A DNA stretch of 64,000 bases. Source: Pomphorhynchus laevis. Its lineage: Eukaryota; Acanthocephala; Palaeacanthocephala; Echinorhynchida; Pomphorhynchidae. A program made the translations under genes and the position numbers. The notes beneath the pieces were generated by a model that saw only the letters and a list, made by a program, of their open reading frames with translations, had not been told where the DNA came from and made no database searches. Positions 25,291-63,756 of the stretch are shown here, piece by piece (positions within the stretch are counted from its first letter, which is position 1; every line of letters begins with the position of its first letter). The DNA is taken from assembly GCA_012934845.2 (NCBI GenBank), contig WNNJ02000867.1, positions 49,229 through 113,228 of the forward strand, written 5' to 3'.

Positions 25291-25316
25291 TCTGACATTT
25301 TGTTAAACACGTTAAT

Positions 25317-26440: not shown

Positions 26441-26469
26441 TTTACATTTGTTTTTTGTTTTTAATTAAA

Positions 26470-26485: not shown

Positions 26486-26589
26486 ACTTTCCACTTTAAA
26501 ATATATCTTTTTTATGCCTTTACTTTATTGTTCGCTGACTATTGTTTCCTGTTCGCTATTGCTTTGATGCGTATATATATTTAGCTATT

Positions 26590-39975: not shown

Positions 39976-40483
39976 AAGTAAATCGATATTTTTGTCTCAC
40001 GGATAATATTTGAAAACAAATTACAAGTGAAATCATAATTCTTTGTGGGTAGTAAATTCTATCAGTTTTTTAAATTCAAAGTCCTAATCATAATTTCACT
40101 TTTCATTTTTAAATGATTTTAAATTTGGCATGTGTTCAAATTTTTGATTGTTTGTAAAAATTGACAGCTGAATGTTATAATTATTTGGATAACCATTTGA
40201 TCTTAATTTTTCAGGATATTCAATTTTGCTGAAACGCAAAATCTAAAATATATTTTTATCTCAAAGAATAAAATGTTAAATTTTAATTTCAAATTCAAGT
40301 TATTGTTATTTTCTTAAAATCACTAATTTTACGAAGATTATAAATTCAGTTTTATAAAAATATGCGACTTTTAAGAAGAACATGGTAGCCCATGTATGCT
40401 TTTAATTGTGATTGTTTTTAGACATTTGCTGTTTCCCTAATTTTTTAGTAAAATGATATATTGATTTGTTTCCATGCCCGACC

Positions 40484-40542
40484 ATGGTATCAGTTAGTTC
40501 TCAAAACGGTAAAATGAACGGAGTAACTACAAATGAGTATAG
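40484..40542 (+). CDS. KIF13-like exon 1 (putative start exon)
   Basis: ATG in a strong context (CGACCATGG) opens a frame MVSVSSQNGKMNGVTTNEY that ends at a GTAAGA donor in phase 2 and splices into exon 2 over 47 nt. The residues are not conserved in KIF13. An in-frame TGA lies upstream at 40455-40457, just after a strong acceptor (TTTCCCTAATTTTTTAG, ending 40448). So an mRNA entering there, by cis or trans splicing, would have to start at this ATG. An acceptor at 40492-40493 (TATCAG) could instead make it an internal exon. Confidence 0.5.
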
Positions 40543-43500
40543 GTAAGACTTAATAATTGCCGTAGAACGTTTTAAATTTATATTTTTAGCATGCTCGTAG
40601 ACAATCTGCAGAGAGCGAATAGGGCAGTGCTCGAGGCTAATTTCCTAGTTAAAGAAATGCATTTAAGTTTAGAACAAATATTTTTATCACTGGAAATTCC
40701 GGTCGATAATTTTAAGCCAAAGGTTCTTTTTGATAAATTTAATTACTTTATCTCAACTACTGCATTCAATAGTTAATATGATAACACAACAGTTTGTTGC
40801 TGTGATGTTTCTCAGCTAATTTTTTAAATATATCAGCTGCCTTTATTATTCATATAATTATAAAGGCAGCTGGTTATAATTACAATAATTATTTTAATTT
40901 TTATATTTCAATTATTTGAAAATTTATTTTAAAAAATTATTTGAAAATTTATTTTATTGAAAACATATTTTAAATGGACAATTTCCTTTTGACGTAACGT
41001 AAAATATTTTTAAATGCAGAATTATTCTGAATTTTAAATGTAGATATCCGCACAACAATCAATTAGTGTTCCAAAATTTATTAAATTGTAGTCTCGATGC
41101 TCCGTCCTTTCTGTATTTGACACCATTTCGTTGAGCTCGACCGTCAAAATATGTTACGTTATATATAGTTAATTGAAACTATTAAATTAAAAGTATTACT
41201 TTGTAAAAATTGATATAAAAAATATTTTGTAAATTTTCTGTTTAGTGATTTCAAATACATAGTCGACTTGAAAATTTGTATAATTTAAAATTTGACAAAT
41301 TTAAATAATTTATTGTTATTGTATTTACACAAGATAATTTGGTTTGGTTTCAACAAAGTTATATAATCACAGAAAATTATTAACTGATCAAATTAGATTA
41401 GTTAATTATACTCCAAATTATATTAACTCTCTCCTTTGATCTGTTACAGGGTTATGCAATTTTATATACCCATTTATTCGATTTTATATACCCATTTATT
41501 GAATTTATATACCCATTTTTCAATTTTATATACCCTTTTTTGCATTTTTTAAACCCCTACTATGGTAAGGAAGACAAGAAAGGCAATGACAAAAGAACTA
41601 CGGGATTTAGTGTTGGGAATGGTGCATGAAAATAAATTCACCATCAAGAAGATTTCTGAGATTTTTCAATTGGATAGAAAAACAATTAGAAAGATCGTTA
41701 AAGATTACGATAGTGGGATGCAGTTCGTGTCGGCGAATGAGAAGTGCCGAGAGACCTGCAAGCTAAGGAATCAAGCGTTAAAGCCAGAAGAACGTGGTAT
41801 CCTCAGCGTCATAAGCTGCAACAACTCTTTTATTCAGAAGGAAATAAAAGAGAGGATAAACGAACAATTTAGAGTTACGATGTCGCAGGCGACGATATCA
41901 AGAAAGCTTAAAAAGCTTGGAATCACAAGGAAGAGACTAACTTGCATTCCAATCGAGAGAAACACTGAAAGCAGACTTGACGATTATGCAGTATACACGT
42001 CCGATATTTCTGCGTGAGGCAATAAAAATATTGTTTTCCTTGATGAGACAGGTTTTAATCTGCACACCAGCAGGTCCTATGGATATTCTCCTGCAAATAC
42101 GAAGGTTTTTTTTATCTGTTTCTGCAATGAATTTATTAAAATTCATTTAATAAAGTATTATTTTAAGCCTTATTTTAAATAGAAGAATTCTTCTCAATGT
42201 TAATTATTATTAATGTTTTAAGAGCTCATAAAAGCATGGCTTAATTGGCTGGTTCACTGCAGAAAAAAAGAAAATATAATAAAAGTATCACAAATACGGA
42301 AAAGCAGCTTTCCCCATGGCATCCTCCATCCGTAATTTCTTTTTGAATTCGTTGATATTGCTACTGCACACTGTTGACTCTCCAAGCCTATTTCACAGAG
42401 ATACAACTCGCCGATCAAATTGGACAGCTCGTGATTTTCTTATCCTTTCACTTCGCAGAGTTAAGCAATGGCCTCGAAGAATATTGTATGGACGCAAATG
42501 AAGTCAATCTCGAAGTGAATGATTCGGTTTATTAAGAATTTGCGAGACCATACTCATATCGATGTACTTGCGGGTCCACGTGATAGTCTGAAGTCTAAGT
42601 GCTTTTAATCGATCAGGGTACGACAAAAATTTCAGTTGCGGTGCTAGCTTGGTAGCTCTATGAAGTACCCTCTTTGAACTAACATGTTATTTTGAATTTT
42701 GGGGATACACACAGCGCAGCATATAGAAGACGGCTCAACACATGAGCAAAGATTAGCAGACGTAGGGCAAATTGATTAAGTGCAATGACAGTGCGTCGAA
42801 GTTGACCGATTGTCCCCAACGCATTTGAACAACCATGTTCAGTATGTGTGACGGTACTCAAGTCACTGTTTATCCACACTCCCAAGTCCTTATATTTGTT
42901 CACTCGTTCTATATCACTGCTTTGAAAGCTATAATTAGCTAAAGATTGAGCATTTCCGCCACAAACACGTAAATGTTTGCATTTTGATATATTTACAATC
43001 AACCTATTGAGCAGAGCCCAATTTTCGACTTCATCGATATCCCGTTGCAGTTTGACTATATCATTGGGTGAACGAATTGCCCGCCAGATTTTCAAATCGT
43101 CTGCATATAAAAGCATCCGAGAATCAATAAATTCCGGGATATCGTTGATGTAGACACTAAATAACAATGGACCCAATACTGAACCTTGAGGCACCCCTAT
43201 ATTACATGGCCGCGAAGAAGAGTAAAAATTATCTACATGCACACAATAACTACGATTGCTTAAAAACGATTCAATCCATCTAACAAGCAAAAATGGAATG
43301 CCACTTTTCTCTAGTTTATTTAGGAGGAATCTATGGTCTACTCTGTCAAATGCCTTAGAGAAATCGAAGAATATGATGTTTGTAGCAATGGATACCGCTT
43401 TTTATGCTGACCAATCAAGATGAGCTGCGAGTAGATTGGTAACTGTCGAATAACCCTTACGAAAACCATGTTGCTCAGAAGCTATTACATTATTCTCACT

Positions 43501-46500
43501 ATTAAACTTGACCATATAACCATGTATAATTCAATCTAACATTCTACAACATAAGCAAGTAATACTTACTGGTCTATAATTGTCTACTGAAGATCTATCA
43601 CCCTTTTTGAAGATGGGGTGAATGATCGATTGTTTCCACTCTTTTGGAAGATTCGTATCAATAATAGATTGTCGAAATATGTTACAAAGTGGTGTATATA
43701 TTGAGTCTGCTATTCGACGAAGATATATCGAATGTAACAAATCAGCACCTTTGGAGTTTATCTCTTTAAGACGATGCAGTTCAGCTAAAACTTTCTCACG
43801 AGTTATCAAATTAGCTATGTCTAAACTAGGATATGAAACACTAGCACCTCTTATCGTCTTACTGTTCTGGATAGGTTCAGAATACTCGTTTGTAGTCTCT
43901 TTGTACAAGTAAAAATGCCTTGAGAACATCTCAGCAAGGTCGTCTTCAATAACGCTATCAAAATATTGGCCAATTGTTTTATTAGCGTTCCTACTACTAT
44001 TCACATATAGAAAGAGAGCTTTGGGATCATGTCTACAACTATGAGCTAGACCATTTTCAAATAAATAGCGCTTATGTCGCTTTAAAGAATTGAAGAAATT
44101 TCTCGCCTGCTTATAAACACCATATTCACAAAACCCACCCTTAAAGCATTTGAAACTGAAGTCATGAGCCTTCATCGCAGTAGCCAGCTCAGTATCAAAC
44201 CAACGAGCGCTTTCCCGACTAGTCTTAGACTTCAAAGGTGAGAATTTTACCATTAGAGAATAAAGCGTCACGCGAAAATGATCCAAGGCCTCGTCAACTC
44301 CGACAACAGCCGGATCAGGCCAACTTACTCTATGCAGCTTTGATGTAATAACATCATAGTTCGCCTGAAAAACATTACTGGTCTGTAATTGTCTACTGAA
44401 GATTTATCACCCTTTTTGAAGATGGGGTAAAGGCAAGATATCACGAATGAAAGGCGAAAACTCCGGAGATTACAATTGAAAATGCCCTTCATTAGTTGTT
44501 GACTACAGGATTGCCCTACAGAAGTAAGTGTAACGGATTTTTCTCTAATATGAGAGAATGGATTGAAAAAGCGAGACGTCGTGAAAAATTCATTTAATAA
44601 AGTATTATTTTAAGCCTTATTTTAAAGTATATTTATTTCTTTTATTATATTCGATGGGTATATAAAATTAAATAAATGGATATATAAATTGAATAAATTG
44701 GTATATAAAATTGCATATATGGGTATATATAAAATTGCCTGTAATAATTTTTATGAGTGAACAACAAATTTTAACAGAATTTTTTTTAAATCCACTCATG
44801 AGAAAACAATGAAGGAGATATTGAAGACGGTATCACGATCGCCCTAAATTTTTGTAAATTCATTATCACAAATTCCATTAATTAAGTGATTTGGGTTATA
44901 CATCATCGATCTACTATGGTCCTTACGCTGAATATAGTCATCTAAGTTTGCGCTCATACAATATACAAAAATTAAGTTCATCAAATAATATATCGTATAT
45001 AATAATAGTATTCCGTCAATAAAAACATTTTCTGCATATACATATTTTTTATTTTACCACGATGTATACCACATCAGTTCACTCTAAAAATCTTTTATAT
45101 TCGTTATAACACAGTGTACATAGCAAAACATTCATTCAAAAATACACAATATATTAACCTGATCACAAAATTGAATGTAATTATCATTTTTTAATAAATA
45201 AAATTATTTTATTCTAAAATTGTATGCACTTTGTGTATATAAATGATGTGTATTTTAATATTATTGGCAAAAATAGTTTATTTAAATAATAAATAATATT
45301 TAATAATATTTAATATATTATTAAATAATGTATAATTTAAAATATATGATTGAAATTATTAATATAATTGAAAGTATTTTAGTGAAAGTATTTTACTTAA
45401 AAGGTGGATCGTTTAATTGAAAATATTTCATTTATATAGTTTAATTTTGATCTTAGGTATTTGAACACTAATTAGATCAAACATATAATCCACAGAAAAG
45501 TGATTGATTATTTAATTATTTAATCAGTAAATTTATTCAATTATTCAATTCAATTTGATTCATTCTTGTATAATTTGTTATCGAGTGTTATAAAGTGTGC
45601 AATTTATTAATATTTTATCTCATTGGTGTATTTGGAATCTATTCCGCTATGTAATCTAGACACTATTTTATAAGTGGTCGTTGATTGATGTATTTTATTA
45701 TATCATTTTTAAATTAGCTTCAAAAGAAGATAAGATGTAAACCGTTTGTTTACATGTGCGAAAATAACAAACGAATTCGATGTATTTCAATAGACGAATT
45801 TGAACATTTGCTTTCCGATGCACGTGAGGCTCTTCGCAATGAAGTAAATTTATATTCTTCTCAATTTAATTTATTTGATCTTACGTTATTAGGAAATTAA
45901 TCGTGATTGCCTTTTTGGATTTAATCAGCCCCATCCTACGTTGATAGGTGTTTGCAATTTAAGCTTGCGTCCATTATTGTACGACATCCGTTTCTCTTAT
46001 TCTGTTTCTGTATTTGGTACACAAGGCGAAGTATAAAATTTTGATAATATGCTAATATGTAATATTTTCTTCAACCAGGTAATTGGCTATCTAAAGTGTG
46101 AACTTAAAAGATTAAATACTTCAGACGGATCATCTTGTGAGGTAATTTTTTGTTTTAACTTGCAAACATTTTTTGATAAAAGTTAAAAATTGTAAGATTT
46201 AAAAATTGTAAATCGTAAATTTTATTTTATTTTTTTTTGATAAAAATTGTAAAATTAAAAAATATTTGAACAATTAAAACTAAAAGTTTAATCAAAAGTA
46301 GTTTCAGTGAAACACTTTTATACAGTATCAAAACGTTAGTAATCATGTTTTAGTTCTGAAATCTTTACAAATTCATAGTCACATATTCGGTGTCATTGAA
46401 ATTTTTTGTAGTTCTACATCCCACATTTACATAAGGCTGAATATAATCATCCAAGTACCCATTGACAAAAATATAATACTTACGTTCATAAGATGATTTT

Positions 46501-49500
46501 GCGGTAATAGAAACGTATTTCGTTAAGCTCGCTTTTTACAAAATCTTACGGCCAAGGAGTCTGTAAAGCTCTATTTTGTTAATTTTCCTAATATGCGATA
46601 TATTTAATTTGGTTGCAAATAGGGATATATATTATTTGTCATTGCAAAAGAGTTTATCTCTCATTATTTACAAATATTTTTCTGCGAAATGTGCGCTATT
46701 TTGTTATTTAGAAAAATTATTATTTTTTAATTAATTATTATTTTTTAAATAAAATTTCTAATGACATATGTGTAAAGATGCTCTACATTAAAGAGTATTA
46801 AGGTATACGCTGCAAACAAACGTCATCAAATGTAATTCAATTAATTACATTTTGATATTTACATCTTGATATTATTTTGATAACAAAAAAATTTAATTTT
46901 AGGTAAAAGTTAGGGAAATAAACGATGTTCCATCGGGTTTCAGCAACTTTGTATTTTGCCAATATACATTTCCTTGCGCCGACGATTCAACATTTGTGCT
47001 GCCATTAAAGCAGTTTGCCCACTTGTCGGCACTTGGAGCAATCAATTTCAATCATACGGCTGTAAGTTTGATATGTAAAGAATTTGTATTTACAAAATAT
47101 TGTATAAATTTAATATTCGATCAAATTAATAATAAAATAAAAAAATAGATTAAAATAATAAAATTTTATTATTTTTTTAATTAAACTTTTAATGATGTTG
47201 AATAATATTTTTAAAATTTAAATGCTCAAAGTTCATTTAGTCTTATTAGTTACAATGCCCTACTATAATGATACTCAGGAAATATGTTTTATTTCGCGTT
47301 AACAATCAAACGAACACGTATCTGCACAATCAGTAGAGATTCAGTTTAGCAAATATTTTATTTTTTCAAAATATTTCAAATACCTCTAATCCTTATTCTG
47401 ATATATCGTATGTTATTAATTGGTAAATATTGTAAAATACAATATAAATAGTTAAATATATAAATCAACACAATAATCTAAAAAATATAACACAACATAA
47501 TATAAAAAATAAATTTAAACTCATTAGCGGAAAATTTGTATGGATGGATAATAAATAATTTACTTTATATTTGAATAAGATACTTGATAATCAAAAAAGG
47601 GCGAAACTCTTATTTGATATTTCTCTAACATCGGTTAGCATCTTCAGAAAATTAAAAAGAAATATTAAAAATAAAATAAAACTCTTAAGCAGAAAATGTT
47701 TATGGATAGATAATAAATAAAATACTTTGTATTAGAATAAGATACTATCTAATCAAATTTCATCAGAGGAAATACGTCATTAGCATGTATTTGGCCAAAC
47801 TACTATATTAGATAGTAAAATATTAGACGAATCTTGATATTACGAATCCCTATATTCCTTATTCTAATGCATCCGATATTATTTAGTCAATATAATACGT
47901 AGGCTCAGTTAGCTGATATAGGTCTCAGTAATTACTGATATTCAGTAATATGTGAGACGGTTGATGTATAATGTATAATGTCACATGTCACATTTTACTA
48001 AGGAGTATACAGAAAAATATCAGTGCATTTTAGTTCTAAAGATACACAAGCCTCGGAATCACGAATTTAATTAGTTAAGGCTAAATATTGCAAGTATTTA
48101 TCATTATCAACGGGATCTTTGTCAACTAGCTCGTTGTTGCGGTATTTTGAAGCAGAACAATCAACGCACTTACAATCTGCATTTACACCATTGCAAACTT
48201 TAACAAACTGCGTTCACACCACTGCAAGCGCATCATTTTGAGTTGTTAAAATTGAGTTAAAGCAATCATTGTTCATAATAACTAAATCATCAATAAAGTA
48301 TGAGTCGTTGAGCTGAGAGGAAATACTGTAGGTTATTAGCTCTTTCTCAGGAAAATTGAATATAGGCAGATAGCTAGCCAGAGAGATTCAATTCTCATTA
48401 ATTGTTTGCTGTGTTTGATTCGTCTTATCTCTGACTCGTCTTTCGATTCTTTGTAATCATTTCTCTTCAGATTTGCAATCAGTTATGTTTGTGTATATTA
48501 TTGTATGCATAATCTCTTGAATATTTGAACTGGTATCTATGTATATGTATAATATACGACATCAAAATAAATGTTTTAACGTTACTGTTTCGATACGGAT
48601 GATTGAGGATAATTGGCCCAGCCGAATCTTCAATGTTGTCGTTTGACTGGTCGTTCCAAATTTTCCAACCACTACTGTAACAATAGGCTTGCAAAAAACT
48701 ATAGCGTTTTCTAAACTTAAGAGCTATTATATAAATGCAATTTGTCAGAGATCTTAAGCCGCGAAAGGATTGACAGAAAAAAAACGTTTGATTTGTTGCA
48801 AGGCCATATTTTCCAAAAGAAAATACTTTGTGTATATTATCTCTCATATTTTTTAAGTCTGTACAATATTATTTTTTATACAATGTTTTATACAATATTT
48901 AAAATAAAGTAAAAAACAGAAAATCGTAAAATATATGAATCAACACAATACTACTAAAAATAAATTTAAAATCATTAGCGGAAAATTTTTATGGATGGAT
49001 AATAAATAATATACTTTGTATTAGAACAAAGTACACTAAATAAGCAAATTTCATCAGAGGAAATACGTCATTAGCATGTATTTGGCCCCATCGGGGAATA
49101 GGGGCCAAAACCTGATAACAAAGCAGTTCCTCTTGATTACTCCTAATCCTTATTCTAATACAACAGAATTATTTATTAGTCATTTAATAGAAGTTGACTT
49201 TTATTTTAAATTCAATTTTAAATTTTAACACTATATAAATTATAATGAGATTAGTCTATTTTAACTTGAAATAAATATAAATTGTAGAAAATCTCATATA
49301 ATTATTTATTATTTATCTTTAGTTTTGATTTATTTATAGTAGAAACTTTTGGCAAAATGAGGGCGTTATAACCTCGTCAATATAAAAATGAGAGGTTAAA
49401 TGTTTAAGAATATAATAATTTACTAAGCTTTATAAATATGTATTATGATCAATAATGACGGATATATCGCTAAATTAATTTGCATGAAAAATAAGTATTT

Positions 49501-52500
49501 TAAATAAGAATTTATGCAAAAATCGATTTAATGAGGTATACTTATTTTACAGTAAAATAGTTTATAAACGGAATTAACTAGAGATAAAAGGGAAATTAAA
49601 CGTGTTAAATACGATTATATGTTATTTTCATCAAAATTATTTTTAAAAATAACCTCATGGTATGGATGTTTTGCTTAAATTCCAATTTAAAATACTTATC
49701 ATAAAAATAAATATAGCGATAGATCCGTCATTATTAATTATAGCAAACTAAAAATGTACACATCTATAAATACTTATTTTATTATTATACTCTTAAACCT
49801 TTTAACTCTCCTTGATTATAATTACGAGATCATAACACTCATTTTTAAAGGATTTGATGCCTCTAGCTAGAAGGACCCAAATTTTGTCTCTATTCTTCCT
49901 TTGCATTGTCTGATTATGTCATATAATAGATTTTAAATTTTACATATTTTTCCGACGATAACTATAAAAAGGTGCTAGCGTTTTCTTTCATCAAGTTAAA
50001 TCAAACATTTCGGCTTGGATTCAGAAATCCTTTACAAAAATGTCATTGTTAATTAACGCTTCCTTAAATTCAGATCCATTACATATTTATTACTTCATTA
50101 TTTGCCACGTCCCGATTTATTTTCTATATTTTATTATTATCAAATTTGTCTTTTTTGTTGTTGAAAATTCTTATTTTCATAAGGTCTTCCAAATCCACTA
50201 AATCTTATTTTTACCATCATTTAATTGTCATTTAGTTTGCTTTATGAAACGACAAACGGCAATATTTTGCTTTTGAAAAATCGACGTAATTAGATATTTT
50301 GTTGCCTATCCAATTATTTCATTTGAACAAACTTTGAAATTAGAATTACTTATAAGAGAATTTATTGTATGCCCATAAAGTAAACTGTAATGTGTTTTAA
50401 TCGCAGTTCATATGGTACTAAGTTTCCATACATTCTGCTAAGAGTAGCTTGCCCTTGTTTTGTTGATTTATTTTTTATATAATAAATTAATTTTTATCGA
50501 ATTATTTGAATTTTATTAAATTTTAATTTTTCATTAAATTAATTTAATTTTAGTCTTTTCGGTTGAAAGAAAATCTGGTGTTGTCTAATATTTTAACGAT
50601 TGAAATATGGGGCCATAAGCGTGCTTCAAGCAGTCGTCATTCTCATAATAATTCAATTGATAATAATTCGCTAATTCAGCAAATAAGTGACAAGTGGAAA
50701 GGTTCCAGATGTTTCTTAATGTTATCCGTTGGCTTAAATGAACTTAATGAAAATGGTATTTGGAATTCAGTTTCTCGTCATTGGGATCCAGCTGTATCGG
50801 GGTGTGGAGGATTCTACAAACTAAAACAGGTAAGGTTTAATTTCTAAATAACAACAAATTACACATTGTATATTTATTACAGGGTCAATCACATGTATTT
50901 CGAGTATGTGTAAAGGATCTTAGATCGTCTGGATCTTTAGCGATTACTCTTAACAGAATAGATAAAATCGAGGTCGGTTGCATTAGATGCTGTAAAAGTA
51001 CAACATCAGGCGAGCTAGATTCATATACAGATGAGGATTTGTGTCTGCTTCGAGAAATGTGGTTAAAAAAACTTGAAATTAAAAGACAATCAATCCAAAA
51101 ACAAATCGCAGAGAGCAATGAAGGTAATATTGTTTTAAGTTTCGTTTGTGGCAGTATATTAGTTGCAATATAGTTCAATGATATAATATTTATCACAATG
51201 TATTATACATGTTTTGATTATACAATATTTGAATCGAAATTTCTCCCTGTTATAATTATGTTAAATTCATAATTTTATAAATTCAAATATTTCCTCTACA
51301 GAATCATAGGGAACATTATATCTCAACAGTAATTCGCTTAAATAAAACTTAATATCATTTATAACACATTTCATCGTTTTCGATCTATACTTATATTTTG
51401 ATTACCTATAATATGATTGACAAAATGTGGTTTATGCTTTATCTTAACATGCTCATATACATTTAAGTTTGATTCAGTAGCCTCATACATATGAGCTACC
51501 TATTCCAATAATATACTTATTAAAATAGAAAAAGTATTGATCTGGGGATAATACACACTCTATTAATCCACACTAAGTTAGATACAAGTTTAGATACTAG
51601 CTTAGATATGAGCTTAGATACGGGCTTAGATATGAGCTTGATACGAGCTTAGATACGAGCTTAATACGAGCTTAATACGGGCTTAGAAACGAGCCTAGAA
51701 ACGAGCTTAGAAACGAGCTTAGATACGGGCTTAGAAACGAGCCTAGAAACGAGCCTAGAAACGAGCCTAGAAACGAGCTTGATATGAGCTTAGTTACGAA
51801 CTTAGATAATAGCTTAGACACTAACTATTGACGTCAACTTGACATTTGGCGAGTTTACGCCAACTCGTTTCTTTGAAAAATACGTCAATTCACCACAAGA
51901 TTTATGTAAAAAATAACCCCTTACATGGTAGACTACCAAGATAATTCGTTTCTCTTACATGATGATGAAGTTTATAGTGAGGAAAGATTTGTTATATTTT
52001 CCCATTTCTATAAGAGAAAATATATTGACAATTCAAGAATTTGTCTTATTGATGGAACATTTAGGGCTGCTCCTCCTAAATTCTATCAAATTTTGATTTT
52101 ATATAGTGAAATATTTGGAAGATTTTATCCATTATATATTTTGATGACTGGGAAATTAGAAACGCTTTATCGTCAAGTTTTTTCTTCCCCTTCCTTCCCT
52201 ATTTCACGAAGGTAAGCATCAAGTGAGTCAATGCTTACCTTGATGCACTTGATAAATCTTTCACGTATGTTCGAAATAAATAATTAACTTTTTTCCTAAT
52301 CTTTACTTTTAAGCATTATTTAAAAAATATGATTCAAAATTAATTCTGATTTTGATAATTAATAATTTTAATAATTTCTTAAATTTTATAATTTTTTCGC
52401 GAGTTGACGCCTTTTTCAAAAGCGAGTTGGCGCTATCCCATAAAAGCGCTATTCTGCATAACTGTTTTGGAAATAGTGTAGGTTTCCACATGTGCATAGA

Positions 52501-55500: not shown

Positions 55501-58500
55501 TTGTGATTCATACATATTTGTAGACATAATAGCTAGGTCGTCCGCGTACATTACCGTCGTTATTAAGCTTCTACTATTACAAATTGTACGAGGTAAATCC
55601 GCTACGAAGAACGGAAATTAAGTGGGACTCAGGAAGTCGCCCTGCATGACACCCTGTGTAGATAAGAAATATTCAGAGTAATTTAGGCCGTCAAAAACTT
55701 TAAGGTAGTTTGGTTCTAAGATGTTTATAATTAACGGTAGTAATCCACCATTTTTGTAAAATAATGAACTTATTTAAAAAAGCATCATTAGGTGATTACC
55801 AGAGTCAAAAGCCATAGTAAAATCTGTGAATATGGTATATAAAGGCTTTTTAACAAAAAATGATTTATGTACTTGATTCCTGACAATATTTGACGCATTT
55901 AAAGTTGAGCAATTAATACGAAAATCGAATTGTTCACGTGGAAACAAATATTCGCGAACTTTCATGATGGGACGAGTCACGGCGAAGGATACGAGCTTAT
56001 AGGTATGGTTAATAAGAGGTATGATTAACCATACCATATAGGTATGGTTAATCACGATTTAAATGATTACGAGAAATCATTATTTGATGGGGTCTCAAAT
56101 GTTTACTAACAAACCAGTAAAATTCATAGTTGAGCAAAATACACTCAGAAATGCAACAATCAAATAAAAACTGAAATAAATTAAAAACTTAAATAAATTT
56201 AAATAAATAAACTTAAATAAATATAAAAACTTAAATAAATTTAAGTTTTTACATCATAGCTTTTAAAACATTCGTTACAATTCATTAAATTTATTAAACA
56301 ATATTCTTATGGTTTGAATAAATTAAATTAAAAAATTTAAATCAACTAAAGAAACAATTAATTTATGAAAATGTAATTTTTGTAAAATGTTAATAATGAA
56401 ATTCAGTCAGAAATAAAAAACTCACAGAAAAACACTTCTGATATTAATAGTTTTTTGATTTATTTTGAAATAATTTTATTTTAGAATTAATAAATAATAA
56501 ATTAATAAATTTATTAATAAATTAATAAATATTAATTTTATTTTGTATTTTAAATAGTTTATTATACATATGAAGTTAATGTTTAACTTGGTATTTGAAA
56601 TATACAGAAAATAATATCAATGATTTTTGATAAACATAATTTTTATAAAATATTCAAATATATCGATAATTACTAATTTGTTTTCTAGTACTTTATAAGA
56701 ATCATTTCGAAAATATTCTCTACAATCCACTTTAATTATGGGAATATCGGAGTCTCTTATTTTTTGTCTTTTAAAAGTGTATAATATACTAAGGGGTATA
56801 ACGCTAACAATATAGCGGAAATGGCACATATTGTCATTATTACTGAAAACGCATATACGTTGAACGAAATCATCTCGAATACGCAGTTTTTCGAGTAGGC
56901 ACATTGATATGTGCAATTACTGCTATGACATTCCAAGCAACAGAATCGATCCTGAAATCCGCGTGGTAGGTATAACGTTTCATTTCTTGTAGATGTTAAA
57001 ACATTTAAAGATGAATTAGATCCCGTAGGAGGAGACCCGGTAGAATTTGATTCAGTGGGAAGTAGTCCAGTAGAATTTGATTCTGTGGGAAATATCCCAG
57101 TAGAATTTGATTCTATGGTAGGAAATCCGGTAGAATTTGATTCAGTGGGAAGTAGTCCAGTAGAATTTGATTCTATGGTAGGAAATCCGGTAGAATTTAA
57201 TGTCGAATTGTTCGTCGGGAGCTGGGTAGTCGTTAAGTTTGTAAAATAATTATATAGGTTTACTGATTCTGGGCGATAGCAACATTTATACTTCTGCGCT
57301 ACTTTTGCACAACTTACCTGAGTGTCGAGTGTCATATTCAACTGTAGACATTTTTCACGGTATTCATAGATATCCGCATTAGCTGTATCCATTGCAAATG
57401 ACAGTGCAATTATAAGAGCTTGCAGCATAAGTAATAGTATTCCTAAGATTGGATACATGAACTTGGAAAATGTTTGCAAAAATTTATTATTTGCAAATTT
57501 GTCCAATTCGGATATTAAAATTGCTAAAAACAACAATATCATGATCAGTGCAATGCAGATTTGAAATATTAGAATATTCGTTATTGAATTGCCGTATATA
57601 TTTTTGTGTTGGTTATATTCGATCAAATACATGATTGCACTAATGAATACGGCTATACCACAACAAAGACAGGCCACACCAGCGAAAACAACATTTACCA
57701 CTGACTTTTTCTTCATCTCCAATTCTTTGTCCCTTGTTTCTTATTTTCACTAGAATTTAGTTTCGAGCATTTTTTATGTAGATATATATATATATTAATG
57801 TACTGTACGGCATAGCTGAAGCAAAAGCGGTAATTGTGGAATTATAACAGGTGCGATATGACCTCATGGAATGTATCGTCTTCTATATTGTACATCGTCT
57901 TCGATATTGTAATATAAATGGGATTCAGGATCAGCTTTTAACATATGCTGATATAGTTAAATTTAGGTGTCAATATGTTGAGTTCAATTCTCCTAATTGA
58001 GAAGGTGTTAAAATACAACTGACACTTTAGCTGAAGAATAGAATAAGCTATAGAATTAGCTGAAGAAAACATTCAGGTTTCTTCGTTTATGGAATTTTTA
58101 TATTTCAAAATGTTACGAATAGGATATCAAAACAATATTCAACTATTACACTATATATAGGGAATCATTCATAATTTAAAATATTATGTTAATGAGCATG
58201 TAATGTATTACAATAGTAATGCTTAGATTTATGCTTGCATCCGAAATTGACTAATACTAATTTGATGACTTTATTCTACACGTTGATTCAATTCTATTTA
58301 TAAGCCAACAGTAGTACGCCGTACTTGCTGTATGCTCTTTTTAACTTTAAGAAAATTAATATATATATTATCTGAACGATTAAATTTATTTAAGTTTGAT
58401 CCAATACAATATAAACTTTATTTTCATTTGTGCAGAACCAATGAAATAGTAACAATATTCATTAATTTTCGTATTTCGCAAAAATTAATGAATTATTAAT

Positions 58501-61500
58501 TAATAAATTATTTTTTAATTAATTAAATTAATTAATGAGAATAAAGCAATTCAAACTGAAAAATTATTTTTTAGCAAAATCGAGATATAAACATTAATTA
58601 TTAATTTATTTCATTGTTAATATTTAAATTTTGATGACTATTTCTATTCTGCATGCTACTTTAATCTTATCTACAAGCCAACAGCAGCACGCTACATTTT
58701 AGTATTCGCAAATCTCATCAGCTACTGAATAAATACCTACGCTTCACGTTTCGGTCCTTTTAATGTTGGCTGACGATCACTCGACTCGTCTGATTTATTG
58801 ACAATTGTATTTAATGAAAGACTTTCTTCTTACATTTTGCAAATTTAATTGAAATCATTTCTGATTTTAAATTAAATCTGCGTTGATTTAATCTAGTCAT
58901 CTATATTCTGCATGCTGCTTTAATCATATATTTAAGCCAAAAGCAGTACGCTACATTTCAGTATTGGTGGACCTCATCAGCTACTGACCCAATACCTACG
59001 TTTCATCTCTTTCCTCCTTTAAATATTGACTGATGATCACTCGACTCGTTTGCTTTTATTGACAATTAGATTAAATGAAAAACTTTCGTCTTTCATTGAA
59101 TGAAAATTTTAATCAAATTTGTAAATTTAATTAAAATCATTTATGATTTTAAAATCACTTTCATCTCTTTCCTCCTTTAAATGTTGACTGACGATCACTC
59201 GACTCGTCTGCTTTATTGACAATAAAATTTAATGAAATACTTTAGTCTTGAATTTTTCAAATATAATTGAAATTATTTCTGATTAGAGGTCATCATTGTC
59301 TGATGACCTCTAATTCTTATTCTGATACAACGTCTGTTATTTATTAGTCAATTCATAAAAATGACGTTTATTTTAAATTTTATTTTTTATTTTTATTTTT
59401 TAACTTGATTTAAATTATAGAAAATCTAAAAACAATTATTAATTTTATTATTTAATTATTAAATTTTGATTTAGCATTATTATGTTTTGTTTATTTTATA
59501 ATTATATAACAATACGTAGACTCAGTTAGCTGATTTAATTAAATCAGTGTTGGTAGGGGAAGGTGCTACCTTCAATTTGAAAAATTGAAAGACTATGAGA
59601 GATTTGAAAGAAAATATAAAACTTTTGCCTTACATTTTTTAACCTAATGAAACTAGTCACTCTTTCGTTAACCATCAAACTAGTCATCTAAAGTTTGTTT
59701 TCTAATTTTCAGTTGATATACCAAAGCATTCATTGCTACCATTGAAATCTTAATGGCGCAGCTATTTTAATAGTCATCAAAATTTCAAAATTCAATAAGC
59801 AGACTCATCTACTCTAAAACATGAATTAAGGTTCATTTGTCCTTAATATGACTTAATATATTACCTGATATGTTTCTTAAGGATCGGCAATGAAATGATA
59901 TCAATACCTGGTTGATATGATTAAAACTTTTAATAGATTTAATCTATCAGCAATACATTAAATAATTTTAGAAAGTCAATTTATTATTTAATCTATTAAT
60001 TAATTTCTCTGGCTAGAAATTATTGTCGAATAAATAATTTTTTTGTTTATATGAAATATATTTTCAGGTTCTATTTGTTGGAATTTTCTCTTCTCTTCTC
60101 TGAGATTAAATTGATTTTATCGAGATTTAATTGATTTTATCAATTTTAAATAATAAATAAGAAATAATTATTATATAAGACTATATTATATATAAGTCTA
60201 ATTATTAATAAAAGACCTTCGTCTGACATTTTGCAAATTTAATTGAAATCATTTCTGATTTTAAATTTAATTAGCGATGGTAGTGGAAGGTGCTATCTTC
60301 AATTTGAAAACCTGTCTATTTTTCATAATGATTACTATTATCAATATCAAACTAGTCATCTAAAATTTGTTTCCTAATTTTAAATTGATATACCTGAGCA
60401 GTCAATGCTAATATTGAAATTTTGATGACTATTTTATTCTGCACGCTACTTTATATCAAGTTAAAATTTAAAATTTAAATTTAAAATAAAAGTCAATGTT
60501 TGTGAATTAACTAATTTTTGTGAATTAACGGCCGTATTATGGAAATAATACCAACACACATTAATCAAGAAGTATCTGATTACTATCCACGTTTCACTCT
60601 GGATAGTAGCTATCCAGAGTGAAACGTTTTAGTGGCCTAGCAATAGCTGTTTGTAAGAATGATAATTGTTACAATTATGGTAATTGATACATTATATGAT
60701 ACCTTTGTGTGTTTTTATTTAATTTCAAAGTGAATATATGCCTCGTTTTATCTGAAATAATAGTGATATTAGAGCAAATTGGAGTGATAAATCAAATAAG
60801 CTCACCGCAAATATTGTCAGCAATCATAAGTTTAAAAACTAAACTTTTTGATATTTACGTATATTATATGATGCTTCAATTAATGCAAAATTAGATGTCT
60901 GCTGATATCTAATTTTAAATATAGAAAGACATGGCTCAAAGATTTATACTTTTTTGTATGCAAAGTAAATCAGAATGTAGTATATGTTTGTTTAGTATTA
61001 TTAGGAAATATAAATACTAATTGTTTTATATAGATTTTACCTTAATTATTCGAAGTGAATAGATACGATAGATAGTATTAATACTATTATATAATAGTAT
61101 TATATAATACTATTATATAATAGTATTCCATCTATTGCATATATGTAACGGATGAGTTTAATCTCTGTAATAAATGGAATACTATGACATGCAATCTATG
61201 TAATAGATCGTTATGTGGACATTTTACAAAAGCTTTGTGAATACTGTAAACAATGTTAACTAACAGTCGAAAGCTTTAAAAGAATATTAAGATTTATTTA
61301 AATATTTATAATTTTACTAATTTTATGACGAAAACCATTTCAATTAAAATTTTTGAAAAAAAATCACTAATTTTTTACTAGTTCACATCCACGCTCAATT
61401 AGCGTGGATGTGAACGTGGATGTAAAAATTTAATTAGTATAATTGGCCTTTCAAAATATATTCACAAACTCCCGTTATGAATTGAGAAGTTTAATATATT

Positions 61501-63629
61501 TATTAAAAGATAACTTTATATTGTATCATTATAAATCAATACTTTTAATAATTTTTACACTTCCCTCAGTTTATATATAACTGTGATAGATAATCCTTAG
61601 GCACTCTTAGAGTTTGAACTCTATCGATGAAGCTCTTTTAGCAGAAATGTTTTTAGGGATTTGATTGTTGATAGACTGCAGTGATTTTCTCCAACATTTT
61701 TATGTATGTACCTCTTTAATCTATTAACATGCTGTATCGTTATGCAACCGGAATGCGCGATAAAGCATTATTTCTTCAATACCACATCACTTTTGTGACC
61801 GCTAGTGGACTAAGATGGTATGGGTGTCATGTAATAATCCTTCTTGTAATGAGTCCTTCTATACTCATTCTAAACTTTCAAATATAGTACCCGGAAATAC
61901 TCTTAAAGGTAGGTTAATAATATTACTCTATCAAGAATATTTACCCGACTTTATCATTTTTATACTCAATTGATACACCTGAATGATTCCAGCGATATAC
62001 CATAACATATCAAGTAATGCAACATTAATATTCTTAGTATGTAAAATATTGATATTTTTATTATATAATAAATCGTATTTTCGGTAATACGTAATTGTCG
62101 AGACAATTGTCAATTTACTTTGCCTATATTTTAATTAATTTTTTTGTATGCGACGAACAAGCATTTTTAATATAAAAATTATCTCATCAATGATGTAGCA
62201 TCAATGATTGCAAAACTTTTGTTCTTAGTAGATTAAAACTTGTTAGTTGTTTATTTTCAACAATTTAACATGGAAATTTAACATTATTATCATTTTCAAC
62301 ATTAACAATATCAACATGGCTGTAAGTATACAGAACGGTAATACATGAAAACAAAAGCTACAAATCACATTTGAATAATTCAAGTAATTTGGATAAATTT
62401 ACCAGATTATAAATTTTCATTTGAATACAAATAAAATTGTTATTGTTTTTATCATCAATTTTAAAAAATATTCGCGTATGTATTCTTTGCTTATAATCAT
62501 TTTGTTATTGATTGCTATCAACACTATTTTTAATTTGTAAAAAATAATATAATTGTTAAATTTAATATATTAATTTACTTAATAAGATCAAACATGTAAA
62601 TTGTATATAATATATTTAATATTAAGGGTTCGTACGAATTCAGTTTTTTATCATTAAGTATATTGAATATATTAAATATATTAATATTAAGTTTTAGTTT
62701 TAAAGTAAATTACGAGAATGAGCTTTCGTCGATAGAATAAATTTTTTTCACTAAAATCTGTACAAAAAAAATAATAATTTTTGATTTGAGTAAAAAACTA
62801 TTTTTTATTCAAATCAAAAGTATAACATTTCGTGCGAATTTAGTTCTTTATCATTATTACATTATTAGTTTTATTTTTAGCCAACGAACAATGCCTAATT
62901 GATAATTTAATATCTGTAACCGAAGAGCGCAATATTGTAGAATTACCACCGGCCGGGTCTGGCATCCCTGGTAGTCCTGCTGATTGGAACCCACCTCCCG
63001 GTGTCGAGAAACATACCCCTTTATTGTTATTATCGAATCGATCTAGCGTTGATATACCAATTGCCGCAGAAAGAGCGGATGAATTTATAACCCTGTCTAG
63101 CTTCATTCCCACCGAAGTTACACCGACATCAAACACATGTTCATCAAGTATGCTGCATGTTCAATGCCATTGGGATGCTGCCACACATGAGTCTGCTTGG
63201 CTAAATCAAATATCAGATCCAGACCTTTTTGTGTTTCTTATAATGAGAATTCACGTAAATTTACAAATTGGGATCTCCTCCTCTCCGAAAACGCGAACCG
63301 TTATTTTAAGAAAGCGAATTCCTGTCCAGATTGTAAAGCGCAATGCAAATAGTAGTGTTGCTTGGATGTCAAAGCTACTACCTACTGTCGGATCTTCAAC
63401 TAGTACACGTAGTAATAATCTATCACATGACATTGGAGTAATCTACGATCTAATTCACGAAATTCCCAGCTCCATCTTGGAATCAGAACCAAGAGAAAAA
63501 ATCGCCCGACTAGCAGCTCAATCTGTTCGTGGCATTAAGAGCATATCAGAGGAAAGTGGAGTTCTTTCTGAATATCTAACACTGCTACAGTCTATGGATG
63601 ATCTCCTAGACCAAGATCAAAATCACCAG
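40484..63629 (+). CDS. KIF13: KIF13/Khc-73-type kinesin-3, tail half (nine exons, continues beyond window)
   Basis: Kinesin-3 heavy chains of the KIF13 type carry vesicles and membrane cargo along microtubules; the part after the coiled coils holds conserved cargo and regulatory regions. Nine exons join with every phase matching: 40484-40542, 40590-40722, 45718-45843, 45893-46030, 46079-46141, 46903-47061, 50554-50829, 50883-51123, 62881-63629. Together they make about 648 codons. Landmarks in KIF13 order: LQRANRAVLEANFLVKEM, LIGVCNLSLRPLLYDIRFSY, GFSNFVFCQYTF, LTIEIWGHKRA, GGFYKLKQGQSHVFRV, ..SYTDEDLCLLREMW, TEERNIVELP, GSGIPGSPADWNPPPGVE, VILRKRIPVQI. No motor (GQTGSGKS), FHA or proline-rich C-terminus is in the window. 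The match is by memory of the family, not a search. Confidence 0.88.
40590..40722 (+). CDS. KIF13-like exon 2
   Basis: Acceptor TATTTTTAG. Reads MLVDNLQRANRAVLEANFLV, KEM.., SLEIPVDNFKPK. It corresponds to the KIF13 segment LVRANTLVREANFLAEEM..LQIPAANL that follows the coiled coil. The donor is the weak GTTCTT at 40723, chosen because it keeps phase 0 with exon 3. Reading through it reaches a stop at 40774. Confidence 0.8.
40834..40872. repeat. Perfect 13-bp hairpin in intron 2
   Basis: CAGCTGCCTTTAT (40834-40846), 13-nt AT loop, then the exact complement (40860-40872). Confidence 0.85.
41562..42117 (+). pseudogene. Tc1-like transposase, N-terminal part
   Basis: ATG after the left terminal repeat: MVRKTRKAMTKELRDLVLGM, with a helix-turn-helix at about residues 25-48 (FTIKKISEIFQLDRKTIRKI) and a second one at about 100-125 (MSQATISRKLKKLGI), the paired-type DNA-binding region of Tc1 transposases. 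A TGA at 42015-42017 interrupts the frame. In the same frame after it comes KNIVFLDETGFNLHTSRSYG, which has the first catalytic Asp of the DDE domain. Coding similarity ends at about 42117, so the second Asp and third acidic residue are absent. Confidence 0.8.
42180..44430 (-). mobile_element. LINE nested in the Tc1-like element
   Basis: Minus-strand non-LTR copy. The 3' end is near 42190 with an ATTAATAATAATTAAC tail and a small stem (AAGC CAT GCTT, 42229-42239). The C-terminal domain lies at about 42680-42290 (YPDRLKALRLQTITWTRKYI, SLNRLGES-like, EFKKKLRMEDAMG), RT at 43530-42679 and the linker/RT N-terminus at 44286-43531. It is 5'-truncated, with no endonuclease seen. The 5' junction carries a 54-bp copy (44375-44428) of its own internal sequence 43566-43619 in the same orientation (about two differences). 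Confidence 0.8.
42679..44286 (-). pseudogene. LINE reverse transcriptase (nested copy)
   Basis: Upper frame (44286-43531): SARWFDTELATAMKAHDFSF, ..LHRLKEINSKGADLLHSIY, WKQSIIHPIFKKGDRSSVDN and YRPVSITCLCCRMLD, then a stop. Then GFRKGYSTVTNLLAAHLDWS, IIFFDFSKAFDRVDHRFLL between frames. Lower frame (43290-42679): LVRWIESFLSNRSYCVHVDN, NIGVPQGSVLGPLLFSVYIN, LLYADDLKIWRAI (catalytic Asp pair), LIVNISKCKHLR, VNKYKDLGVWINSDL. It has only a few stops. The family is shared with the 34 kb and probably the 24 kb remnants. Confidence 0.8.
44496..44597 (+). pseudogene. Tc1-like transposase, C-terminal tail
   Basis: Open frame ending at TAA 44595-44597: LLTTGLPYRSKCNGFFSNMR then EWIEKARRREKFI. The CNGFF.NM...I.+...RE pattern is like the C-termini of Tc1/IS630-type transposases, and its position 145 bases before the right end fits. 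This is inferred; the match is short. Confidence 0.45.
44744..45717. other. Remainder of kinesin intron 2
   Basis: AT-rich intron DNA between the Tc1-like element and exon 3. No gene or recognisable element was seen. It ends in the acceptor ATTTTTAAATTAG (45705-45717). Confidence 0.55.
45718..45843 (+). CDS. KIF13-like exon 3
   Basis: Reads LQKKIRCKPFVYMCENNKRI, RCISIDEFEHLLSDAREALR then NE, donor GTAAAT. It corresponds to the KIF13 stretch EPAIQV..KG....WS.EKLENRL.DMRDLY. Phase 0 on both sides. Confidence 0.8.
45893..46030 (+). CDS. KIF13-like exon 4
   Basis: After a 49-nt intron. Reads EINRDCLFGFNQPHPTLIGV, CNLSLRPLLYDIRFSYSVSV, FGTQGE. It matches ..LIGVANVFLE.L.YDV+L.YAV.I...QGE of KIF13. 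Donor GTATAA. Confidence 0.88.
46079..46141 (+). CDS. KIF13-like exon 5
   Basis: After a 48-nt intron (CTTCAACCAG). Reads VIGYLKCELKRLNTSDGSSC then E. It corresponds to VAGRLHVEVMR.. of KIF13. Donor GTAATT. The following intron is 761 nt with nothing recognised in it. Confidence 0.75.
46903..47061 (+). CDS. KIF13-like exon 6
   Basis: Acceptor TTTAATTTTAG. Reads VKVREINDVPSGFSNFVFCQ, YTFPCADDSTFVLPL.., INFNHTA, donor GTAAGT. It matches the VKIKEATGLP..LSNFVFCQYTF motif of KIF13, one of its best-conserved tail regions. Confidence 0.88.
47514..47925 (+). repeat. Dispersed repeat copy in kinesin intron 6
   Basis: Shares ATTAGCGGAAAATTTKTATGGATGGATAATAAATAAT.. ACTTTGTATTAGAATAAGATAC, TTTCATCAGAGGAAATACGTCATTAGC and the end sequence TACGTAGGCTCAGTTAGCTGAT with other copies in this gene (48950-49290, 53006-53560, 54290-54440, 59282-59540). 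The internal part is duplicated (two copies of the ACTTT..TTAGAATAAGATACT block). Confidence 0.65.
48080..48847 (-). pseudogene. Coding-like patch in kinesin intron 6, unrecognised
   Basis: This block is clearly less AT-rich than the rest of the intron. On the minus strand a 122-codon frame (48847-48479) starts MRDNIHKVFSFGKYGLATNQ and includes SSGWKIWNDQSNDNIEDSAG, PIILNHPYRN. Further down (about 48400-48080, another frame, one TGA) it reads LPIFNFPEKELITYSISSQL, NDSYFIDDLVIMNNDCFNSI and ..CKCVDCSASKYRNNELVD. The residue mix is that of real protein rather than noise. No family was recognised. It could be a nested gene with undetected introns, or a dead copy. Confidence 0.35.
48950..49290 (+). 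repeat. Dispersed repeat copy in kinesin intron 6
   Basis: Contains the ATTAGCGGAAAATTTTTATG start, ATACTTTGTATTAGAACAAAG, TTTCATCAGAGGAAATACGTCATTAGC, a 9-bp hairpin TTTGGCCCC/GGGGCCAAA (49081-49109) and the 3' part CCTAATCCTTATTCTAATAC.., TTATTTATTAGTCATTTAATAGAAGTTGACTT. It is the reverse complement of 53160-53350 in large part. Confidence 0.65.
49291..50553. other. Remainder of kinesin intron 6
   Basis: AT-rich; no gene or element recognised. It ends in the acceptor TTAATTTAATTTTAG before exon 7. Confidence 0.5.
50554..50829 (+). CDS. KIF13-like exon 7
   Basis: Reads SFRLKENLVLSNILTIEIWG, HKRASSSRHSHNNSIDNNSL, ..SDKWKGSRCFLMLSVGLNEL, NENGIWNSVSRHWDP.., GGFYKLKQ, donor GTAAGG. It matches KIF13 ..L.IEVWGHR......DRW......+.++V.+.ELNE.GEY..VE....D..TGGIFQLRQ. 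A Ser/His/Asn-rich insert follows the GHKR motif. Confidence 0.9.
50883..51123 (+). CDS. KIF13-like exon 8
   Basis: After a 53-nt intron ending TATTACAG. Reads GQSHVFRVCVKDLRSSGSLA, ..DKIEVGCIRCCKS, ELDSYTDEDLCLLREMWLKK, LEIKRQSIQKQIAESNE and ends in phase 1. It matches KIF13 GQSRRVQV.VKP+..SGTLPL......+S+GC+.......LDSYQEEDLN..RE+W...L..RR.YL..QI. Confidence 0.9.
51590..51805. repeat. Minisatellite, GAGCTTAGATAC-type 12-bp units
   Basis: About 18 imperfect copies of a 10-12-bp unit (GAGCTTAGATAC, GAGCTTGATAC, GAGCCTAGAAAC and variants) lie in kinesin intron 8, directly before the MULE left end. Higher-order repetition (CGAGCCTAGAAA three times in a row at about 51735-51775) shows recent unequal copying. 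Confidence 0.85.
51925..52215 (+). pseudogene. MULE transposase fragment, 96 codons
   Basis: Open frame MVDYQDNSFLLHDDE.. with the segment RICLIDGTFRAAPPKFYQIL at residues 38-57 and RFYPLYILMTGK at 66-77. This is the DGTF...P..F.QL......PL.Y.L...K signature of the MULE/FLYWCH-associated transposase; Asp43 is the first catalytic Asp. The frame ends soon after, at TAA, so the rest of the DDE domain is missing. It is either a deletion derivative or a domesticated short ORF; the first is more likely. Confidence 0.7.
52209..52241. repeat. 11-bp hairpin at the MULE frame end
   Basis: AAGGTAAGCAT (52209-52219), 11-nt loop, ATGCTTACCTT (52231-52241), perfect. Confidence 0.75.
53006..53560 (-). repeat. 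Dispersed repeat, paired copies in kinesin intron 8
   Basis: Minus-orientation copy starting TCAGCTAACCGAGCCTACGTATT (53008-53030) and reaching TTAGAGGTCATCAGGATG (about 53212). The core AATAATTGTTTTTAGATTTTCTATAATTTAAATCAAGTTAAAAT occurs twice (about 53095 and 53425). GACTAATAAATAACAGACG also occurs twice (about 53178 and 53507), so two partial copies are merged. It is inverted relative to 59282-59540. Confidence 0.65.
54290..54440 (+). repeat. Dispersed repeat, partial copy
   Basis: AACCTAATAACATAGCAGTTCATCTTGATGACTTCTAAT..TTATTCTTATAC, then TTATTAGTCAATTAATAGAAGTTGACTTTTATTTTAAATT. It matches the 3' half of the copy at 48950-49290. Confidence 0.6.
54657..56055 (-). pseudogene. LINE reverse transcriptase remnant in kinesin intron 8
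   Basis: Minus-strand pieces in order: FRINCSTLNASNIVRNQVHK, LYTIFTDFTMAFDSGNHLMM (palm motif, 55774-56055), LSTQGVMQGDFLSPT (about 55640), VMYADDLAIMSTNMYESQLA (YADD about 55540), then an open 171-codon frame (55416-54901) NITYLGLQLDSRLSFTSHVE.. ending RPIFLQT, and a Cys-rich end (CIFCSSPCASLLHVFSCSHL, about 54740). The GVMQGD and C..C...H..C features are those of the R1/jockey-type C-terminal region. It has stops and frameshifts. Confidence 0.7.
56002..56035. repeat. 12-bp hairpin with a third direct copy
   Basis: GGTATGGTTAAT (56002-56013), 10-nt loop, ATTAACCATACC (56024-56035). GGTATGGTTAATC returns at 56041-56053. Confidence 0.85.
56225..56250. repeat. Perfect 12-bp hairpin
   Basis: AAAAACTTAAAT (56225-56236), loop AA, ATTTAAGTTTTT (56239-56250), within a run of ACTTAAATAAAT repeats from 56160. 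Confidence 0.8.
56757..57722 (-). CDS. Tetraspanin-like four-pass membrane protein with sequon repeats, 321 aa
   Basis: Complete intronless frame on the minus strand, nested in kinesin intron 8. It has four hydrophobic segments at about residues 9-32, 47-70, 88-111 and 287-316. The first extracellular loop is very small (about 33-46) and the second large (112-286), the tetraspanin topology. The large loop has Cys pairs KCCYRP (147-148) and FCCLECHSSNC (261-270), but the canonical CCG is not exact, so it is a divergent tetraspanin. Residues 175-238 are tandem 10-residue units SNSTG(F/L/I)(P/L)xTE, each with an NST glycosylation sequon; about 68 residues of the loop are this insert. Cys-rich juxtamembrane residues (CLCCG, 18-22) suit palmitoylation. 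A TATA-like run lies at 57780-57797 upstream. Membrane organiser role inferred from family. Confidence 0.72.
   Translation of the reverse strand: MEMKKKSVVNVVFAGVACLCCGIAVFISAIMYLIEYNQHKNIYGNSITNILIFQICIALIMILLFLAILISELDKFANNKFLQTFSKFMYPILGILLLMLQALIIALSFAMDTANADIYEYREKCLQLNMTLDTQVSCAKVAQKYKCCYRPESVNLYNYFTNLTTTQLPTNNSTLNSTGFPTIESNSTGLLPTESNSTGFPTIESNSTGIFPTESNSTGLLPTESNSTGSPPTGSNSSLNVLTSTRNETLYLPRGFQDRFCCLECHSSNCTYQCAYSKNCVFEMISFNVYAFSVIMTICAISAILLALYPLVYYTLLKDKK
57009..57200 (-). repeat. 30-bp coding minisatellite in the tetraspanin-like gene
   Basis: About six in-frame copies of a 30-bp unit (plus-strand form GTAGAATTTGATTCTATGGT.. or ..TCAGTGGGAAGTAGTCC) encode the SNSTG-type decapeptide. 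Two alternating unit types (GLLPTE and GFPTIE) indicate duplication of a 60-bp pair. Confidence 0.9.
57723..58245. other. Upstream region of the tetraspanin-like gene
   Basis: It contains a (TA)n TATA-like run at 57780-57797 on the minus-strand promoter side. Otherwise it is AT-rich kinesin intron with no element recognised. Confidence 0.4.
58246..60460 (+). repeat. Diverged tandem and dispersed repeat array in kinesin intron 8
   Basis: A unit of about 265 bp is tandem at about 58632-58896 and 58897-59157. It contains TATTCTGCATGCTRCTTTAATC, AAGCCAAMAGCAGYACGCTACATTT, CTCATCAGCTACTGA and TGACTGAYGATCACTCGACTCG. A 3' part repeats at 59158-59285 and 60205-60265, and a 5' part at 58255-58320 and 60410-60455. 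A second motif, GGAAGGTGCTACCTTCAATTTGAAAA, occurs at about 59558 and 60276. The copies are interrupted by the repeat at 59282-59540. Confidence 0.7.
59282..59540 (+). repeat. Dispersed repeat copy with terminal 14-bp hairpin
   Basis: It begins with the hairpin ATTAGAGGTCATCA (59282-59295), loop TTGTC, TGATGACCTCTAAT (59301-59314). It continues TTATTCTGATACAACGTCTGTTATTTATTAGTC.. and ends ATACGTAGACTCAGTTAGCTGATTT. It is the same family as 53006-53560 in the opposite orientation. The hairpin looks like an inverted duplication of the element's own end. Confidence 0.7.
60589..60627. repeat. Perfect 18-bp hairpin, 3-nt loop
   Basis: ACGTTTCACTCTGGATAG (60589-60606), TAG, then the exact complement (60610-60627). 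Confidence 0.9.
61075..61130. repeat. Iterated palindrome of ATACTATTATATAATAGTAT
   Basis: Alternating forward and reverse copies of AATACTATTATA/TATAATAGTATT run without a gap from about 61078 to 61126. Confidence 0.85.
61381..61415. repeat. Perfect 15-bp hairpin, 5-nt loop
   Basis: GTTCACATCCACGCT (61381-61395), CAATT, AGCGTGGATGTGAAC (61401-61415), followed by a further partial copy GTGGATGT. Confidence 0.9.
61430..62880. other. End of kinesin intron 8, no gene seen
   Basis: AT-rich DNA. Short open frames in the region lack motif or compositional support. It ends with the acceptor TTTTATTTTTAG (62869-62880). Confidence 0.5.
62881..63629 (+). CDS. KIF13-like exon 9
   Basis: Enters in phase 1. 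Reads ANEQCLIDNLISVTEERNIV, ELPPAGSGIPGSPADWNPPP, GVEKHTPLLLL, ..TLSSFIPTEV.., VQCHWDAATHESAWLNQISD, PDLFVFLIMRIHVNLQ, TVILRKRIPVQIVKRN, IGVIYDLIHEIPSSI, ..REKIARLAAQS and ends ..SMDDLLDQDQNHQ before a GTAAAT donor in phase 0. The GSGIPG.PADW.PPPG.E block is almost invariant in KIF13 proteins. The order then follows the conserved kinesin-3 tail (shared with KIF1/KIF13, DUF3694 region) to the LAARS helix. Further exons must lie beyond the window. Confidence 0.92.
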
Positions 63630-63756
63630 GTAAATTTAAATTCTAATACTCGTTTTTATCTTAAAAATTTAATAAAATTAGGAATGTATTTATTATAAAT
63701 AACAATTTGACGATAACAATATTAATTGTAATTTGATTTAATATACGTGGTGTAGA

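Follow-up and report, generated by a model that had tools for sequence, protein, structure and literature searches.

KIF13A and KIF13B, represented in Drosophila by Khc-73, and, among the other kinesin-3 proteins, KIF1A/UNC-104 and KLP-6 are the closest described systems to the gene analysed here. In Khc-73, the MBS domain is reported to bind the Dlg1 GK domain and the stalk to carry a 14-3-3 motif that leads through NudE to dynein, both links of the tail being independent of the motor (PMC7215838); in KLP-6 and KIF13B, the MBS domain is described as helping to lock the motor (PMC9314371). Loss of KIF1A/unc-104 is reported to be lethal early in both mice and Drosophila (PMC5011141), so that one would not expect an animal to lack kinesin-3 motors altogether. 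Kinesin tails that are free of a motor and can bind cargo exist as laboratory constructs, but these are truncations made by experimenters, where the present case would be a natural gene, and the titles and abstracts of the open-access literature that we searched held no natural motor-less KIF13 gene.

Here, we analyse a 64,000-nucleotide stretch of the Pomphorhynchus laevis genome (the window), which corresponds to bases 49229–113228 of contig C3156 (113,228 bp, without N), together with the rest of this contig and the assembly it belongs to. We lean towards reading the locus as a stand-alone KIF13 tail gene, which extends from a putative MBS domain to at least DUF3694, with no kinesin-3 motor to be found in the assembly.

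When spliced, nine exons with GT–AG borders and consistent phases yield 648 codons free of stops (Table 1), which agrees with the original prediction of nine phase-consistent exons. The introns between them, from A–B to H–I, measure 47, 4995, 49, 48, 761, 3492, 53 and 11757 bp. As exon I ends at a donor, at least one more exon is expected, and the contig stops 371 bp past it, at window position 64000. The span first given for the gene, 40449–63629, thus has to be corrected in its meaning, as 63629 closes the last visible exon and not the gene.

Table 1 Features of the KIF13 tail gene and of the contig end, in window coordinates.
Feature	Position	Strand	Description
Exon A	40484–40542	+	Counted from the ATG (ATG, 19 codons and 2 bases); candidate first coding exon
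Exon B	40590–40722	+	Start of the putative MBS domain (KIF13B 683–726); 16/44 identities with Hyla KIF13B over the aligned stretch
Exon C	45718–45843	+	Putative MBS domain; little conserved, 7/42 identities with Hyla KIF13B
Exon D	45893–46030	+	End of putative MBS and region after it; supported by splicing, tblastn, tail profile and alignment
Exon E	46079–46141	+	Supported by splicing and alignment; too short for the profile to detect alone
Exon F	46903–47061	+	Supported by splicing, tblastn and tail profile
Exon G	50554–50829	+	Supported by splicing, tblastn and tail profile
Exon H	50883–51123	+	Supported by splicing, tblastn and tail profile
Exon I	62881–63629	+	Best DUF3694 stretch at tail residues 479–553
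Dispersed mariner-like repeat (by eye)	63746–63900	-	Lies 100 bp short of the contig end; also on 21 further contigs (82–96% identity)

That these exons encode a KIF13 tail, as first proposed, is borne out by domain and homology searches alike. The spliced protein carries DUF3694 (PF12473) with a Pfam match above the curated cut-off (E 3.6e-9). While no relatives of the 648-aa tail were found in solved structures or, within its own length range, among 7997 scored sequences, widening the length window brought up three proteins among 7992 scored, namely KIF13B of Hyla sarda (30% identity, E 1.5e-48), KIF13B of Trichomycterus and KIF13A of Brachionus (25% identity, E 1.5e-35), all of which carry a motor. 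The tail is collinear with roughly residues 683–1357 of Hyla KIF13B, with conserved blocks in most exons and residues kept in frog and rotifer alike. Among the 3469 six-frame ORFs of the window, a tail profile detected six of the nine exons at E ≤ 4.3e-4 and a profile of the N-terminal half, covering motor and FHA, detected nothing (best E 0.44), which places the match beyond chance. Exon I had no relatives in viral and prokaryote contigs.

The locus therefore shares with KIF13A and KIF13B the order and content of the tail, from a putative MBS through DUF3694, at about 25–30% identity, and differs from them in that the motor, neck and FHA region were not found and that the MBS domain is shorter in exons C/D; this comparison covers the tail to exon I, as the CAP-Gly part of KIF13B would lie beyond the contig end here. 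With KIF1A/UNC-104 and KLP-6 it has DUF3694 and, putatively, the MBS region in common, but again no motor or FHA was found. The likeness within kinesin-3 is also seen in a structure search, where PDB 7wrg ('Kinesin-like protein'), which we take to be KLP-6, matched the MBS region of KIF13B (E 6e-7). Because motor and FHA, two defining features, were both sought and neither was found, we do not class the product of this locus as a kinesin but as a tail derived from KIF13.

The gene would start at exon A or B. Exon B begins at the position of KIF13B residue 683, six residues later than the crystallised MBS construct (5b64, which starts at 677), and the gene would thus start at a domain boundary. 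As for exon A, an in-frame TGA lies upstream of its ATG, at 40454, and the ATG context is GACCATGG, both as earlier described. Its donor is good, as about 2% of 20-nt stretches would be expected to match it, and the 47-bp intron A–B falls within the short-intron class of the gene. The acceptor at 40448, in contrast, had been called strong, which was overstated, since 453 of the 3075 AG sites in the window (about 7 per kb) score as high or higher; with such acceptors this common, its reading as the border of a 5' UTR or as a spliced-leader acceptor is weak. Acceptors inside exon A (exon starts 40494 and 40498) score far below all real sites of the gene, which makes it unlikely that exon A is internal to a longer gene, and a transcript that skips exon A and joins an upstream exon to exon B is possible. 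The case for exon A as the first coding exon is modest: the exon shows no conservation in KIF13 and its acceptor is weak, both of which count against a stand-alone gene.

According to the original prediction, inspection by eye showed no plus-strand motor or FHA exon in the 40 kb upstream of the tail within the window, and this extends to the whole contig of 113,228 bp, including the 89.7 kb upstream of exon A, where we found neither. In the window, a tblastn search with the KIF1A motor gave nothing above the reversed-sequence control, and searches with the three full-length KIF13 proteins matched the tail exons, with no motor or FHA signal above the reversed control. On the six-frame searches we rejected a motor at another place in the window, whichever the strand, and on the whole-contig search one in a longer upstream intron of contig C3156. 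The sensitivity of the profile approach was gauged by mixing pieces of Brachionus KIF13A into the window ORFs and seeking them with a profile made from the two vertebrate proteins. At piece lengths of 60, 40, 30 and 20 aa, this recovered 33/33, 29/35, 27/36 and 21/37 motor pieces, 15/15, 16/17, 12/18 and 6/19 pieces of linker and FHA, and 49/71, 30/73, 20/74 and 5/75 tail pieces. Applied to the nine exons of the window, the same two-vertebrate profile detects five at E < 0.01 and exon B at 0.12, and a motor exon would be easier to detect than the tail exons already detected. Between the contig start and exon A, the plus strand carries ORFs that resemble separate genes, although an ORF is no proof of a gene. 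At C3156:42380–42880 (+), upstream of the tail gene and on its strand, lies an intact 167-aa ORF for a secreted, Ly6/quiver-like protein (PF17064 E 0.008, below cut-off).

The search was extended to the assembly (249 Mb in 3242 contigs), in which no kinesin-3 motor of KIF13 or KIF1 type was found with PF00225, KIF13B or the KIF1A motor. A genome-wide search for a set of KIF13 motor exons had been proposed along with the original prediction; it returned none, and neither a motor joined to the tail on contig C3156 nor a second locus with the motor half only turned up. PF00225 gave 24 matches on 11 contigs, none of them C3156, which reduce to 10 motor loci as C108 apparently duplicates one exon of C2175. 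Full-length KIF13B gave 13 matches at E ≤ 1e-3 (19 candidates), comprising eight motor exons of other kinesins (32–50% identity), exon I and four matches in the CAP-Gly region on contigs other than C3156, and the KIF1A motor, with 14 candidates, gave 12 at E ≤ 1, each on a contig that PF00225 had listed too. That an upper limit of 31 on the candidates examined could have concealed kinesin-3 exons was considered and rejected, as both searches stayed below this number and the one for chaperonins returned 39.

By searches against solved structures, the motor on C1986 is placed in kinesin-1, that on C14 in kinesin-4 and those on C1169 (best structure 5x3e, presumably ZEN-4) and C1029 (KIF20A at 5e-29 versus KIF1A at 3e-23) in kinesin-6, and the one on C317 is not firmly classified (best KIF3B at 8e-16, KIF13B at 8e-10). 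By eye, C2149, C832, C596 and C2175 are kinesin-13-like and C1170 is kinesin-7-like. None of the P-loops read at nine of the ten motor loci is the GKSYTMMG of KIF13 and KIF1A; that of C1029 is GKSYTMRG, within a kinesin-6-like GITNSGK context. For kinesin-2, -5, -8 and -14, for which the search relied on the PF00225 profile, no member was recognised; with few motor loci (10) in all, the kinesin repertoire may be strongly reduced, or some motors may have been missed. Such reduction is seen in lineages that have lost many genes, and about 40% of metazoan BUSCO genes are reported as missing in Seison and Acanthocephala (PMC12256650).

The FHA domain gave a similar picture, with six loci in the assembly, of which one carries a protein kinase (Chk2-like) and five are, by eye, kanadaptin-, SNIP1-, NIPP1-, nibrin- and SLMAP-like; tblastn with KIF13 produced no match to its FHA at any of the six. 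DUF3694 was found at this locus alone in the assembly, at an E value (0.0016) that fails the cut-off, a sensitivity at which a second, diverged copy might go unnoticed. The genome search was also less sensitive than the local one, as the KIF13B query recovered exon I alone of this tail. We also rejected a haplotig or further copy of the tail with the motor attached, on the grounds of a single DUF3694 and a single tail match, both from searches of limited sensitivity.

How far these absences can be trusted depends on the assembly, which looks fairly complete. For chaperonins, where nine genes are expected (eight CCT subunits and HSP60), 41 matches fell into nine main loci, on contigs C2582, C913, C777, C1420, C1372, C2165, C211, C1056 (with C2418 as a likely duplicate) and C3151, besides C1245, which has stops, and three partial places; the comparison is one of locus numbers. 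For the proteasome, with 14 genes expected, 18 matches lay at 13 places, one of them perhaps a copy, so that 12–13 of 14 were recovered and single genes can be missing. Animals normally have several kinesin-3 motors, and a chance joint absence of all of them from the assembly is less likely, an argument weakened by the lack of recognised kinesin-2, -5, -8 and -14.

It is against this background that an ordinary full-length KIF13 has to be weighed, in which the motor and FHA exons would lie past the left end of the contig, behind an intron longer than 89 kb, or in a gap, and exon A would be a chance structure or the first exon of a short isoform. We regard this as unlikely, but by no means negligible: a full-length protein is the rule among the three matched KIF13 proteins, introns in this gene reach 11.8 kb and bear repeats, the contig itself ends at repeats, and the proteasome control leaves one or two of 14 genes unseen. 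A motor could lie past the left contig end, which is 89.7 kb away from exon A. However, the motors of at least two genes, of KIF13 and KIF1 type, would have to be absent where all nine expected chaperonin loci were found, and the plus-strand ORFs upstream of exon A look like separate genes, with the reservation that applies to any ORF. The original idea of a KIF13 tail without a motor is in this respect strengthened, by the lack of a motor in the 89.7 kb upstream and of a kinesin-3 motor in the assembly, and falls short of proof in that motor exons could lie past that left end or in a gap.

The tail could also be a pseudogene that recently lost its motor half and has gathered no stops so far, in keeping with the missing motor and a diverged exon C, but 648 codons and eight introns with no stop and no broken splice site, together with conserved blocks in most exons, make such a decaying remnant improbable. 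Still less probable is a split gene, with the motor half encoded at another place, separately or in strongly diverged form, and brought together with the tail at the protein level or by trans-splicing; the motors on C317 and C1170 that are not firmly classified (the latter judged by eye only) leave some room for it, but no kinesin-3 P-loop was seen at the nine loci read and no kinesin-3-like FHA was found. Finally, a contaminant contig, from an organism otherwise unrepresented in the assembly, would account for a tail without any kinesin-3 motor, but hardly seems credible and was rejected, as contig C3156 shares repeat families, among the matches listed, with C596 (a kinesin motor) and with C695 and C2840 (FHA genes), its terminal dispersed repeat recurs on 21 contigs, and the base composition of the window is within the range of other contigs.

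We therefore return to the stand-alone gene, which is most likely what this KIF13-derived tail represents, judging from the exon structure and the searches described above. The wider scenario, that the lineage lost every kinesin-3 motor, including KIF1A/UNC-104, and kept a KIF13 tail starting at the MBS domain as a gene of its own, is a tentative proposal that could well be right. If true, it would provide natural evidence for a selected function of the KIF13 tail that needs no motor of its own, and would make it possible to study the tail where it is unable to pull cargo, with scaffolding (Dlg, dynein bridging) set apart from transport.

Such a protein would not walk. As there would be no motor for the MBS domain to lock, a scaffold is the natural reading, and the tail would most likely hold cargo or cortex. 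Dlg would be the first candidate partner of the MBS domain: the same genome has a Dlg-type GK exon, whose best match is a Dlg1 structure (E 1.9e-22), and exons B–D align over the crystallised MBS domain. However, since exon C is poorly conserved and about 12 KIF13B residues of the MBS domain are missing in exons C/D, we offer binding to Dlg as a hypothesis. Any movement would be borrowed, either from dynein, through a bridge of the 14-3-3/NudE type as in Khc-73, or from kinesin-1. If no kinesin-3 motor is left, the role of a dominant partner, also raised in the original prediction, is unlikely.

The window holds several further features. At 20261–30880, several ORFs of LINE-type reverse transcriptase and endonuclease lie on both strands, with Pfam matches to RVT_1 and Exo_endo_phos on the plus strand. 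Intron B–C contains the N-terminal part of a Tc-like transposase at 41553–42017 (+), with helix-turn-helix matches below cut-off, and intron H–I a short-repeat array at 51590–51830, recognised by eye, with a gagcttagata-like unit. The same intron carries, at 56757–57740 (-), a single-exon ORF of 327 aa that combines several hydrophobic segments with a Thr/Ser/Asn-rich repeat; it is tetraspanin-like by eye and has no match in Pfam. At the other end of the window, at 1738–2166 (+), a 143-aa ORF without a Pfam match is rich in Tyr, Gly, Ser and Asn and contains repeats, and looks eggshell-like by eye.
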